Origin: a virus
Direction: 5' to 3' (one strand)
Length of the DNA stretch: 55,607 nucleotides
Virus record (IMG/VR): IMGVR_UViG_3300030098_002332
Location: 1 to 55,607 of that record
Shown: positions 2,775-13,881 of the stretch, one piece after another
Position numbering within the stretch: the first letter of the stretch is position 1
Layout of the letters: each line of letters opens with the position of its first letter
Made by a program: the position numbers and the translations under genes
The notes under the pieces: model-generated
Seen by the model: only the letters and a program-made list of their open reading frames with translations
Told to the model about the DNA's origin: nothing
The model's database searches: none

Positions 2775-3473
2775 TTAGTCTATATATATATCTGACCAGT
2801 TCATAGGCATGGTCTTGCCCTTTAGATGTGCACAGCGTGAGCCAGCAGTTATATCATCAAGAGAGTTAAAGCTAACCATAGTCTGGTCATCTTCTCTGTA
2901 AATATAACCAACAGCATCAGCGTTAGCACAAGTGATTTGCTTGATTTTGCCAGTTAAGTCAAGATCCTTTACAGCAACCTCTTTACCTTTCTTCTCAAGC
3001 ATTTTGTCTTTTAGGTGGCCAACTAAGATAACATGATCCGCCAACAGGTTTAGTCTATCTATCCACTTTTTGTAGGCCATCCGCAAATATAGATAACCAG
3101 CGCCATTTGGCAATGATAATATTGACATTCCTGGGTTTTTAGTCTCAAAGTTTTTACCCATAGGTGTTTTCATATAAATTTTCTTGCCTTCTGCTTCACA
3201 CCACTCCTCAAGTTTAGATATAGTGTCGATAGCAACATATTTATATGGTTTTCCAGCTGTTATAATAGCTCTACCAACATCACCTAGTTCTTTTAAATTA
3301 TTTGCTTTAATCTTTAAAGCATCAACCATGTCTGAACCATCTTCTAGGTCGATGATTAGACAGTTGTCAAGTTGTGATAATACTGTAGTCTTGCCAATCT
3401 TTGGCGGACCATAGATTATCATGTTTTTAGGCGATTTACGGCTAGCCTTTACCTTCTCTTTTGGTAATTCCAT
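2775..3473 (-). CDS. RecA-superfamily ATPase of the phage nucleotide-binding (Sak4/AAA_24) type
   Basis: A 232-aa P-loop ATPase. The Walker A motif GPPKIGKT lies at about residues 22-29 and a Walker B-like strand (KYVAIDTISKLEEW) at about 78-91. A later strand ends in VILVGHLKD, typical of the sensor region in Sak4-like phage proteins. These are single-strand annealing and recombination ATPases that work with an SSB, which is encoded two genes downstream. Start is the ATG at 3473, two bases after the stop of the newly found small gene 3475-3633. The fold is clear; the exact recombination role is by family knowledge. Confidence 0.82.
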   Translation of the reverse strand: MELPKEKVKASRKSPKNMIIYGPPKIGKTTVLSQLDNCLIIDLEDGSDMVDALKIKANNLKELGDVGRAIITAGKPYKYVAIDTISKLEEWCEAEGKKIYMKTPMGKNFETKNPGMSILSLPNGAGYLYLRMAYKKWIDRLNLLADHVILVGHLKDKMLEKKGKEVAVKDLDLTGKIKQITCANADAVGYIYREDDQTMVSFNSLDDITAGSRCAHLKGKTMPMNWSDIYID

Positions 3474-6848: not shown

Positions 6849-7009
6849 ATTTTATTTTTATCTATAATTTGTTCTAACTCATGTATCCTGTCTAAATGCT
6901 CTGTAGTTTTCTTGTATGTAAATAAAAATGTACATGCAGCACCAAAAACAATACCAATACCTGCTGTAAGACCTATCTCTGTTAATGCTAATATACTATC
7001 TATACTCAT
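6830..7009 (-). CDS. Small single-pass membrane protein (59 aa)
   Basis: The product has one hydrophobic segment (ALTEIGLTAGIGIVFGAACTFLF) followed by a charged helical tail (EHLDRIHELEQIIDKNK). The ATG at 7009 is chosen because it overlaps the uracil-DNA glycosylase stop as ATGA, a typical coupled arrangement; a longer form from 7042 would be buried in that gene. Function is unknown. It is the second small membrane-anchored coiled-coil protein of the replication block, besides 3584-3766. Confidence 0.6.
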   Translation of the reverse strand: MSIDSILALTEIGLTAGIGIVFGAACTFLFTYKKTTEHLDRIHELEQIIDKNKIWIKHS

Positions 7010-7689
7010 AGCTCTACTCTCATTTGTTGTGGAACTCCCCATTGTATAGGTTGTTCTAACTTAGTATTGATTTTCTTAAAATGTCCACATGTAAAGAAAC
7101 CAGCTCTACCACCAGAGTATGACTCTGCAGCAGGATGAGGCGCCTTAAGTATAGTATGTCCAGATGGATACATAATATGCCTCTCATACTCCTGTGCCTT
7201 CTTACCCCATAACACCCAAATAAGATCTGACTTTTCTACAGACAGTCTAGTTATAATATCTCTTGTAAATGGCATCCACATATTTACATGTGACCCAGCT
7301 CTACCTTTCTGAACAGTCAAGGCAGTATTTAACAACAACACACCTTGTTTAGCCCAGCTTTCTAGACTTTTATCTACATTTACAGGTCCAAAATCATTCC
7401 TTACTGCCTGTATTATATTATTTAAACTAGGACTAGCTCTACCACCATCATTTGCAAACGCTAATCCTGTTGCACTACCATCATGATATGGATCTTGTCC
7501 TAGTATAACAACTCTTACAGACTCTAGAGGACACATTTGAAAAGCTCTAAATGTTTTACCTCTTTCTGGATACACCTTACTCGTAGTCACATTATTTCTG
7601 TGCTGCTTAATTAGCTCTTGGAAGTAATCCATTTTAAATATAGGCTCTAGTATCTTATACCACTCTCCTACTTGTTCTTGTACATTCAT
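7006..7689 (-). CDS. ung: Family 1 uracil-DNA glycosylase
   Basis: A 227-aa enzyme that removes uracil from DNA, leaving an abasic site for repair. Hallmarks of UDG family 1 are clear: the water-activating loop GQDPYHDG at 64-71, the LLLN strand, and the minor-groove loop HPAAESYSGG near residue 187 carrying the catalytic His. UDG is a recurrent member of crAss-like replication modules. Its presence implies a phage genome that must be kept free of uracil. The start overlaps the preceding 57-aa gene as ATGA, and its stop overlaps the next gene in the same way. Confidence 0.95.
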   Translation of the reverse strand: MNVQEQVGEWYKILEPIFKMDYFQELIKQHRNNVTTSKVYPERGKTFRAFQMCPLESVRVVILGQDPYHDGSATGLAFANDGGRASPSLNNIIQAVRNDFGPVNVDKSLESWAKQGVLLLNTALTVQKGRAGSHVNMWMPFTRDIITRLSVEKSDLIWVLWGKKAQEYERHIMYPSGHTILKAPHPAAESYSGGRAGFFTCGHFKKINTKLEQPIQWGVPQQMRVEL

Positions 7690-11196: not shown

Positions 11197-11310
11197 TTAG
11201 TTAATAATATGGTTTTCTATAAGTAATGCAACAATGATAAGTAATATCCCACAATAACTGTAGGATAATACTCTCATTGAATATTTGTAACTATCATTTT
11301 TATACATCAT
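11197..11310 (-). CDS. Small membrane peptide (37 aa)
   Basis: A short frame fills the gap between two small genes. It starts with tandem ATGs at 11310/11307 that overlap the stop of the upstream gene (ATGATG) and ends at a TAA at 11197. The peptide begins MMYKNDSYKYSMRVLSYSYC and then has a hydrophobic segment (GILLIIVALLI), fitting a tiny single-pass membrane protein. The overlap with the upstream stop supports translation; the short length makes it tentative. Confidence 0.45.
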   Translation of the reverse strand: MMYKNDSYKYSMRVLSYSYCGILLIIVALLIENHIIN

Positions 11311-11534
11311 TTTACTTCATTGTCTTTCATCATCTTCTCCATTTCAACGTATAGTTTTTCATAGTCTTGCTCAAGAGCTTTGTTCTTTTCTTTTAACTCA
11401 ATAATCTCAAGTTTATATTGAACAGCTTCTGTTGTTAGTCTGTCAACATCTTGCAATGCTCTTGTTAATTCTAGATTCTTAGTTCTAATTTTTTGTTCTT
11501 CATCATAATTGATGTTGTTAATTGGTAGTGCCAT
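11307..11534 (-). CDS. Small coiled-coil protein (75 aa)
   Basis: A 75-aa highly charged protein that is helical nearly throughout, with heptad spacing (LTRALQDVDRLTTEAVQYKL, then IIELKEKNKALEQDYEKLYV). It is most likely a coiled coil. The start at 11534 is supported by TTAATTAAAC directly before the ATG, the leader type of the minus-strand block. It is the first gene downstream of the gene-free structured segment, if that segment is transcribed on the minus strand. No specific function is visible. Confidence 0.6.
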   Translation of the reverse strand: MALPINNINYDEEQKIRTKNLELTRALQDVDRLTTEAVQYKLEIIELKEKNKALEQDYEKLYVEMEKMMKDNEVK

Positions 11535-11559
11535 GTTTAATTAATTTTAGTTAATATTT

Positions 11560-12515
11560 TAGCTAATTGTGCTCACTCTGTATTTTCACGGGCTTGTGAC
11601 CGTCCTTGGCTACATTAAGCACGAATTAGGGGATTACAAGTCCCAAAGTAATACCATCAGGTTTTTACACCTGTAAATCTCGATACATATTATACATCTC
11701 CCAATGTATTCTTATAATTACTAATCCACTTGGACGTCATAATTACATCAAATAATCTACTACAGATTAAAATATACTATCATCAGTCAAAGGCGTGACA
11801 TCATAGATAGTTTAGTATCATACTAACAATCAGTTTGTTTTTACTTAATTATTAGTTATTACTTTAGATGTATCCAACTGTTAAGTTAGTGAAGCTATAA
11901 CATTTGTTATAACCTATTCGTCTGGATGACTATACATCTCTGTCCACTCTTGCTAGTACAAGTGTTAACGACAGTTCTAATTCTAAGGAGTCTTGCAATA
12001 CTCCCTACGCTATTCTGTTCTGGTCTCTATTACCGAGTGTGGTAGCCAGTTCCCCTATTTATCCACTTTTTACTATTAGTCTCCTGTAAGGACACACTAA
12101 TAGTCATATTTAAAATAAAGAATAGTCCACATGCCTTACGGTTTACCACTGCAGGTTGTTATCCAAGACGTTCTACTATTCTTTATTTGTGTTTAGTTAA
12201 TGTTTAGGTTAAAAACTATCATGAGTGTCTTAGGTAATTATTTAGACTATTAGATACACACGACCTAACCAAGACCATTACCCTTGGATCTCTCATGATA
12301 GTTATTATAAAACAACAACAGTAAGTTTACTACATGTTCTAGGTGAATATTAGAATATTCGATAAGTTTTAAATGTGGTTTCATCATCAGAACACTCCAC
12401 TTTACCTTACCTGTTGTTGTTATAATGCAACCGTTGCCTCTATCTCTGGTCGGTTAACTACTAAGCACCAACTAGTATTTATGCTTTTCGTGATTATTAT
12501 AAGTTGCATTTGATT
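11560..12515. ncRNA. Candidate large structured RNA (about 950 nt), strand uncertain
   Basis: There is no credible open frame here, but a chain of long-range inverted repeats in series: 11563-11573/11618-11629 (one bulge), 11631-11636/11722-11727, 11776-11781/11806-11811, 11866-11873/11932-11939, 11984-11991/12000-12007, 12072-12080/12096-12104 (9 bp), 12113-12126/12175-12188 (14 bp perfect), 12214-12225/12292-12303 (12 bp perfect), 12311-12321/12411-12421 (11 bp, extended by 5 bp across a bulge), and 12424-12431/12503-12510. Several units enclose further hairpins (for example 12230-12235/12263-12268 and 12269-12273/12283-12287). The scale recalls large phage RNAs such as GOLLD or ROOL, but I recognise no conserved sequence of either. 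G-U evidence is split between strands; both flanking genes are on the minus strand. Confidence 0.5.
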
Positions 12516-12530
12516 AGAAATGAACAGTTT

Positions 12531-12755
12531 CTACACTTGTTCAGGTGTTATTATTTTGTAACTATGGTTGTCCCAGAGTTTACGACTACATCTTCTTACA
12601 AGTGCAGTTGTTCTTCCTTCTAATGGAGTTTCATGTACATATTCTACAAACTTGTCATGTTTTTTAACAAGTATACAATTAGATCTTCCAGACTCCATGT
12701 TAATTATTATACATCCTTCATTTCCTAAAGAGTATTCATTCATATTTATTCTCAT
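12531..12755 (-). CDS. Small unknown protein (74 aa)
   Basis: A 74-aa protein beginning MRINMNEYSLGNEGCIIINM, mixed beta in character (CILVKKHDKFVEYVHE) with a basic patch RTTALVRRCSRKLWDNHS. It may be a small beta-barrel or SH3-like fold; no family is recognised. A shorter start at 12743 is possible. The last codons lie in a 6-bp inverted repeat (TGAACA...TGTTCA, 12521-12541), so a weak stop-codon hairpin ends the gene before the structured segment. Confidence 0.5.
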   Translation of the reverse strand: MRINMNEYSLGNEGCIIINMESGRSNCILVKKHDKFVEYVHETPLEGRTTALVRRCSRKLWDNHSYKIITPEQV

Positions 12756-12933: not shown

Positions 12934-13125
12934 AACTTTTAGTGGTTTACCAGAATTGATTTCGTCCCACCTGTCGAAGGCAGATTCAAGACTGGTGTAC
13001 ACAACTTTTTCTTTGGTGTGAGTATCAGTTTTGGAATCAAAGGATTCTTCCGTGATTCCTACTCTACATGGTGTTCCGTTCTTGTCCACTTTAGTGTCAA
13101 GAACTTTTACTACTGTTAGTATCAT
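12925..13125 (-). CDS. Small unknown protein, first gene of the minus-strand block (66 aa)
   Basis: A 66-aa protein (MILTVVKVLDTKVDKNGTPC at the N-terminus) of beta-rich character, probably one small barrel or hairpin domain. It is the first gene leftward of the divergent region, and its 3' end forms an intrinsic terminator, so it may be transcribed as a single-gene early message. No family is recognised; early-expressed anti-host or regulatory peptides often sit in this position. Confidence 0.55.
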   Translation of the reverse strand: MILTVVKVLDTKVDKNGTPCRVGITEESFDSKTDTHTKEKVVYTSLESAFDRWDEINSGKPLKVEV

Positions 13126-13285
13126 AATTAAAAGTATTTTAGTTAGGATAGTTAATATTATTTGTGGGGGGTACCCTAAACCCCCAACACTAGCCGGGGT
13201 GTCTGTACAAGGAGGACCGTACGCTCACAGATCTACCTCAAAAAAATTTTTTATATTTTATTTTTTTATTCCATTTATTTTATTT

Positions 13286-13293
13286 TATCTTTG
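13286..13293 (+). promoter_or_regulatory. Bacteroidota-type -7 box, plus strand
   Basis: TATCTTTG matches TAnnTTTG exactly and follows an A/T-rich tract with long A and T runs. No clear TTTG is present 19-21 nt upstream, only T-rich sequence. It would start an RNA near 13300, more than 300 nt before the first late gene. Confidence 0.45.
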
Positions 13294-13299
13294 CACCGC

Positions 13300-13560
13300 A
13301 ACAATATTCATCCCTCGGTAACCAAAAAAGGGAAAAGACATCGGATTGTAGGGCTAAATAAGTCTAGAGTTTTCTCCGGTAGTTGCAAAAGAACAAGTGT
13401 ATAAGTTCTAGTTGGGGTAAATTACACATAGGTAAGTGTGATGAATTAACATCAGTTTTATTATCCCTGGGTCTCTGTAAAAAGAAGCACTGCTAGAGTG
13501 AAATCCAAGTTTGAAAGAGAAATCCTAAGGGGGATAACTATATCCTAATCAAAAATACTG
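13300..13560 (+). ncRNA. Candidate structured leader or small RNA
   Basis: There is no open frame between the two promoters. Nested complementary arms are visible: AGAAC/GTTCT (13389-13393/13404-13408), ACAC/GTGT, GATG/CATC, and a closed domain with TTATCCC (13461-13467) pairing GGGATAA (13531-13537), inside it TCTCT/AGAGA and CACT/AGTG (13488-13491/13497-13500). The sequence GAAATCC occurs twice in this domain. It may be an untranslated leader of the late operon or a separate RNA. Confidence 0.4.
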
Positions 13561-13567
13561 TAAAACA

Positions 13568-13600
13568 TTTGGAAGTATAAAAAAATTGTTTATATATTTG
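13568..13600 (+). promoter_or_regulatory. Bacteroidota-type promoter before groES
   Basis: TTTG at 13568-13571 (-33) and TATATTTG at 13593-13600 (-7, perfect TAnnTTTG) are separated by 21 nt, within the range of the known Bacteroides consensus. Transcription would begin about 13607, giving a leader of roughly 12 nt before the groES ATG. This is the clearest two-box promoter in the window and probably opens the late operon. Confidence 0.75.
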
Positions 13601-13617
13601 CACAAAAATATATAGAT

Positions 13618-13881
13618 ATGAAATTTATACCAAACGGATCGTGGGTTGTCCTACCTGACCCAAGTAAAAAGAAAACAGATTCTGGAATTATCTTAGATGA
13701 TAAGACTGCCAGAAAACAATCAACTAACATTTTAGAGGTATTGGCTGTAGGCCCACACTGTACTTTTGTAAAAAAAGGTGATACTGTTATGGTTGATCCT
13801 AGAACAGAAGCTGTAATTGCAAATATAGAAGACACGCAATACTTATTAGTTGGAGAACATCAATTATTAGGTAAGTGGTAA
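13618..13881 (+). CDS. groES: Co-chaperonin GroES (Cpn10)
   Basis: An 87-aa GroES-family protein. It has the N-terminal strand (WVVLPDP), a mobile loop (SKKKTDSGIILDDKTARKQS) ending with the hydrophobic SGIIL that contacts GroEL, the LEVLAVGP strand, and the KKGDTVMVDP turn. Phage co-chaperonins such as T4 gp31 pair with host GroEL to fold the capsid protein, so being the first gene of the late operon fits. No GroEL is encoded in the window; host GroEL is the expected partner. Confidence 0.93.
   Translation: MKFIPNGSWVVLPDPSKKKTDSGIILDDKTARKQSTNILEVLAVGPHCTFVKKGDTVMVDPRTEAVIANIEDTQYLLVGEHQLLGKW

Follow-up and report, generated by a model that had tools for sequence, protein, structure and literature searches.

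A conserved multi-branched phage RNA joined to a type-P1 twister ribozyme, a candidate counterpart of GOLLD

The phage DNA analyzed here (the window, 55,607 nt) holds, upstream of its DNA polymerase gene, a gene-free stretch whose minus strand carries a large conserved RNA structure, termed RNA F, and the intact core of a type-P1 twister ribozyme; in related phages, the giant RNA GOLLD is found at or near the same position. The explanation that we favor, and consider probable, is that RNA F is a transcribed and twister-released large non-coding RNA with a role in trans, a counterpart of GOLLD that would represent a new family among the large structured non-coding RNAs of phages. The features of the region are listed in Table 1 and discussed below with respect to their conservation, genomic setting, and possible function.

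Table 1. Features in and around the gene-free stretch (positions in the window)
Feature	Position	Strand	Evidence or comment
Genes flanking the gap	11307-11534 and 12531-12755	both minus	gap 11535-12530 between
75-aa gene directly downstream of F	11307-11534	minus	same family after F in 11 of 18 loci
Type-P1 twister ribozyme	11570-11621	minus	RF03160, 54.8 bits, E 3e-11
RNA F, large multi-branched RNA	11617-12014	minus	~398 nt; 3' end is the predicted twister cut
Closing stem of F, 3' strand CUAAUUC	11623-11629	minus	directly before twister P1
Closing stem of F, 5' strand GAAUUAG	11977-11983	minus	pairs with 11623-11629
5' hairpin of F, conserved 8-nt loop (AUUGCAAG / UUUGCAAG)	11987-12005	minus	covariation
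Unit E2, GUGGAUAAAU...ACCACACUCGGUAAUAGAGA	12020-12069	minus	possible pseudoknot, GUGG/CCAC crossing CUGG/CCAG
Unit E, 9-bp hairpin	12070-12107	minus	inverted repeat I7
Unit D, perfect 14-bp closing stem	12113-12188	minus	inverted repeat
34-nt element TTTTAACCTAAACATTAACTAAACACAAATAAAG	12180-12213	minus	repeated matches across relatives
Unit C, 12-bp closing stem	12210-12307	minus	inverted repeat
Unit B, 11-bp closing stem	12308-12424	minus	conserved single-stranded blocks, crossing GUGG/CCAC stem
Unit A, closed by AAUGCAAC/GUUGCAUU	12423-12511	minus	homologue comparison

Structure and conservation of RNA F and its twister ribozyme

The interval 11535-12530 contained no open reading frame of at least 60 amino acids, and a hidden gene was ruled out because the largest frame on either strand was 46 amino acids, in agreement with the first-pass annotation, which had described a gene-free segment of about 950 nt. 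The three long stems named in that annotation were exact to the nucleotide (12113-12126/12175-12188, 14 bp; 12214-12225/12292-12303, 12 bp; and 12311-12321/12411-12421, 11 bp), and three perfect inverted repeats of at least 11 bp were seen in the gap compared to 0.09 expected, a number reached in none of 200 dinucleotide shuffles. Its figure of at least ten arm pairs was generous, as we counted eight imperfect pairs under the settings used and five perfect pairs of at least 9 bp, and the stems themselves exist. All three long stems lie in the 5' half of the region; the strongest conserved structure lies in the 3' half. Folding of both strands against shuffled sequence gave better than shuffled values for the whole region (z of -3.6 on the minus and -2.95 on the plus strand). 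The 3' 455 nt reached a z of -5.4 on the minus strand compared to -1.1 on the plus strand, indicating that the minus strand, which is also the strand of the flanking genes, is the RNA strand. The earlier proposal of an ornate large phage RNA thus gained support from strand asymmetry and covariation; its view of a single large RNA held in part, since the region appears to comprise several separate units in series together with one large RNA, whose 3' twister had been overlooked.

Relatives were gathered via the DNA polymerase and terminase of the window phage and via short RNA patterns, and the F alignment comprised 13 sequences including the window, each with the full conserved F-plus-twister stretch (12014-11570, minus strand). 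The fold was computed on the window sequence by itself, before its pairs were counted on the alignment. Pairing was preserved in the homologues, with 94.7% of cells paired compared to 86.0% in shuffles, and two-sided changes were observed in 50 of 145 pairs compared to 27.7 in shuffles. The covariation score was 0.306, compared to 0.145 in shuffled controls, which leave the kinship among the sequences in, and at most 0.063 with partners slid by 1-3 columns, a control that is less affected by kinship, as is the distant clade described below. Many of the kept pairs are G-U. The 7-bp closing stem was paired in all sequences (100%) and showed two-sided changes in three of its seven pairs; in the 5' hairpin, the covarying inner pairs were alignment columns 14-31 to 18-27. 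Helix 10 of the window fold, paired in 65%, is probably wrong or variable. In the window clade, the putative 5' boundary near 12014 was placed by sequence conservation only.

Two distant homologues, L056 and L007, were found at E values of 6e-9 and 5e-8, and both fold with the same helix order as the window F. The order common to the clades begins with the 5' hairpin with its 8-nt loop, the 7-bp closing stem, and a hairpin arm; continues with a three-way domain with an AAAU loop and then an inner GACAC/GUGUC stem (GAUAC/GUAUC in the window); and ends with two late hairpins, the closing stem, and the twister. In both homologues the closing stem reads GAACUAG/CUAGUUC compared to GAAUUAG/CUAAUUC in the window, and again lies directly before the twister. 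As judged from these sequence comparisons, the structure of F and its ribozyme core are well supported by covariation.

At Rfam gathering scores nothing was found in the region, and in a sensitive search the type-P1 twister model (RF03160) matched at 54.8 bits compared to a gathering score of 67.2 bits (E 3e-11). A custom twister model scored 81.7 bits on the window, which was part of its training set. The core letters UAA, GC, CGGUC-CAAGCCCG, AAA, and GAG are kept in the window and invariant in most copies. Across twelve copies, P1, P2, and P4 were 96.6-100% paired, with two-sided changes in every P1 and P2 pair and in two of the four P4 pairs. The second pseudoknot, CCC/GAGGG in the Rfam consensus, reads CAC/GAGUG in the window, a compensatory change (A-U against C-G), and the consensus letters are kept in L003. 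The element therefore matches RF03160 in its conserved core, P1, P2, P4, and pseudoknot, and makes up the 3' part of the window element; it differs in its sub-gathering score, in having CAC/GUG for CCC/GGG in the pseudoknot, and in the large conserved RNA attached to it. Following known twister chemistry, the predicted cut falls between U 11617 and A 11616. No other Rfam family was found in the region, and a SNORD21 match at 11726-11791 (E 3) was put down to chance.

Twisters also occur in other arrangements. The human-gut phage MT835475.1 (L002) carries two twister-P1 ribozymes on the minus strand (2578-2636 and 2997-3048, ~400 nt apart), each with a short hairpin directly before it and a protein gene after it, an arrangement that points to the twister as a processing site between genes. 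In L100, positions 3111-3345 (minus strand) hold a short RNA of another kind, with GGAAAGGG/CCCUUUCC as its closing stem and a twister directly after it; this is the same design of closed domain plus twister with an RNA unrelated to F.

Under the favored explanation, an early minus-strand transcript of the operon leading to DNA polymerase would carry RNA F together with units A to E2 as separate structured elements. RNA F would fold into a multi-branched domain held by the closing stem, and the twister directly after it would cleave itself at 11617/11616. This cut would free RNA F from the downstream mRNA and leave it with a defined 3' terminus that carries a 2',3'-cyclic phosphate. The twister body would remain as the mRNA leader of the 75-aa gene, and the released RNA F would act in trans, in the role filled by GOLLD in sister phages.

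Genomic setting and relation to GOLLD

The closest named relatives of the terminase (~42% identity) are mostly crAss-like phages. RNA F of the window ends 1.8 kb upstream of the polymerase gene. Across loci, the genes upstream of F come from several unrelated families, so that F is linked to no single gene. F, detected via its twister, is present in 14 of the 50 related records searched, many of which are fragments. Among named phages, only the twister piece of F matched, in MT835475 and LR596903; no match to F was obtained in plasmids, nor to the F pattern in genome contigs. In the literature searched, whose coverage was incomplete, we came across no large phage RNA described as ending in a twister.

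Comparison of the window with GOLLD, first drawn by analogy in the first-pass annotation, proved apt, as the Rfam GOLLD model (RF02032) matched four sister contigs (L018, L029, L057, and L059) with scores of 212-226 bits; these matches lie 1.7-2.5 kb upstream of the polymerase genes. In L018, GOLLD is followed by a gene of the same family as that after F (50% identity over 36 aa, E 3e-7); the genes after GOLLD differ in L029, L057, and L059, so the positional identity is close only for L018. F and GOLLD co-occur in none of the 50 records (14 and 4 carriers, respectively), and since by our calculation a zero overlap is expected about 1 in 4 times by chance, we claim no mutual exclusion. RNA F takes the place of GOLLD, at or near the same position, and is not detectably related to it: the model of the conserved GOLLD 3' region had no hit in the window at a threshold as permissive as E 10, and the reading of F as a GOLLD remnant was rejected. 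The annotation had also recognized no GOLLD or ROOL sequence, and the Rfam search was of the same outcome for GOLLD, ROOL, and OLE. ROOL (RF03087) gave no cmscan match at gathering, nor one within the region at E 10, and OLE had no Rfam match there; a further ROOL/OLE search was also without a match, but its positive control was unmatched as well.

Both F and GOLLD are large multi-branched phage RNAs at or near corresponding spots upstream of a DNA polymerase gene. GOLLD forms a homo-oligomeric cage and is often located near tRNA islands, whereas no tRNA or tmRNA was found in the window. F carries a twister, in contrast to the GOLLD-bearing records, which have none. F measures ~400 nt, whereas GOLLD often exceeds 800 nt (PMC12286853). 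ROOL, which is likewise encoded by phages (PMC12286853), and OLE resemble F as large ornate RNAs and differ in that the window has no Rfam match to either. An apparently unrelated RNA at the position of GOLLD offers a comparative handle on the purpose of giant phage RNAs, as features common to F and GOLLD should point to what such RNAs do. We know of no function assigned to GOLLD or ROOL. The built-in twister adds a precise, testable end and would give a ribozyme a part in the production of a large non-coding RNA.

Two other relatives have gene-free gaps upstream of the polymerase gene without twister or GOLLD matches, in L119 (~2.2-2.7 kb upstream, fold z of -6.0) and in L082 (~1.6-2.2 kb upstream, fold z of -4.2), which are possibly further RNA families.

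Alternative explanations and hammerheads in relatives

The main rival to a released RNA F, a serious if lesser possibility, is processing of mRNA in cis, whereby the F domain and twister separate upstream and downstream mRNAs, leaving a protected 3' end on the former and a 5'-OH leader on the latter, with no function in trans. F starts at the stop codon of the preceding gene in L065 and L150, which leaves no evident promoter for F alone and raises the possibility that it belongs to an mRNA; the gut phage twisters with a simple hairpin sit between protein genes; and the hammerhead of L061 lies just before a gene. However, a simple hairpin would suffice for such a task, and the ~20 conserved helices with invariant loops, kept in a divergent clade, point to an independent function. 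The upstream genes are, moreover, unrelated between loci, and the corresponding position is taken elsewhere by GOLLD, a free-standing RNA. A released, trans-acting RNA F accordingly remains our preferred reading.

Ribozymes upstream of F bear on a second set of ideas. A unit of ~190 nt, termed unit G, ends in a type III hammerhead-like structure at five loci (L056, L007, L018, L100, and L061), with the core CUGAUGA...GAA and stems I, II, and III, the stems being kept by two-sided changes. The Rfam hammerhead model (RF00008) scored 24.2-27 bits in L018, L100, and L056 compared to a gathering score of 48.5 bits (E 2e-5 to 4e-5 per record), and a local search with Hammerhead_3 matched L056 at 27 bits (E 2e-4). 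In L007, L018, and L061, the pair next to the cut is U-A in place of the usually invariant A-U. Unit G lies directly before F in L056 and L007, and in L018 directly before ~300 nt preceding the recognized GOLLD, probably the variable 5' part of GOLLD. With the candidate hammerhead before F and the twister after it, an RNA of ~416 nt is predicted to be excised in L056 (7916-8332, 417 nt) and L007 (285-700, 416 nt) if both ribozymes cut, both sites being placed by known ribozyme chemistry. L100 was not counted as a flanked F because a gene and the different short RNA lie between its hammerhead and twister.

This phage lineage might reserve a slot for a giant RNA, filled by GOLLD or by the unrelated F, with F excised by its own twister, in some lineages by a hammerhead too, to become a naturally circularized RNA; we regard this as speculative and rather unlikely. 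The narrower rival, in which both ribozymes cut in L056 and L007 and a host RtcB-type ligase joins the 5'-OH and cyclic-phosphate ends, is improbable. The hammerhead match in L056, the hammerhead-like geometry with covarying stems in L007, L018, L100, and L061, the twister after F, and a closing stem that brings the two ends together are consistent with it, but no hammerhead was found in the window itself, the hammerhead scores are below gathering, the three U-A loci depart from the usual pair at the cut, and no ligase turned up among those window genes that were compared with Pfam and PHROGs. Retrozymes, a class of natural circular RNAs flanked by ribozymes, are retrotransposons with hammerheads (PMC4918200); they share with the prediction for L056 and L007 an RNA between two self-cleaving ribozymes, and differ in that here a hammerhead and a twister are combined, in a DNA phage and in distant relatives only.

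A DNA-level element such as a replication origin or recombination region with cruciforms, the main alternative in the first-pass annotation, is very improbable because F beats chance folding on one strand only, many of its kept pairs are G-U, which a DNA hairpin does not favor, and a twister functions only as RNA, even though the region lies ~1 kb from the reversal of gene direction and GC skew and the stems of units A-E are long and perfect, with fold z values that are alike on the two strands.

This reversal falls at 13000-13620 of the window, where the first of the rightward genes is GroES-like (13618-13881); a uracil-DNA-glycosylase-like gene is located at 7006-7689. Hammerheads of type III whose stem-I loop reads GUGU are common in viral contigs (91 stretches, ~90 contigs; L238-L315 and others), some contigs carrying two or three copies. 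L018 holds unit D, unit G with its hammerhead, and GOLLD in that order (178-1060), the hammerhead being directly upstream of GOLLD.

Structured units upstream of RNA F

The smaller units were conserved to different degrees. Unit B has eight homologues, with two-sided changes in 11 of 21 predicted pairs. Unit A has six, in which the closing stem is kept and covariation is modest. Near-identical copies of unit D are present in L084 and L018, and the second stem of unit E2 changes on both sides across the window, L184, and L170, as compared by eye in these three sequences and without statistics. No homologues of units C and E were found among the relatives. The motif CUGAUGAUGAAA in unit B of the window was ruled out as a hammerhead, because stems I and II are missing and the motif is absent from L201.

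In relatives, units A, B, and D turn up at other sites and in other arrangements, and F is preceded there by unrelated genes or different units. F and the smaller units thus behave as cassettes, and the recurrence of structured units in varied combinations suggests that RNA cassettes are exchanged among these phages much as genes are among others. The 34-nt element precedes gene starts in relatives (as read in L015, L016, and L150); in the window it precedes unit D and no gene, as if an RNA unit had replaced the gene.
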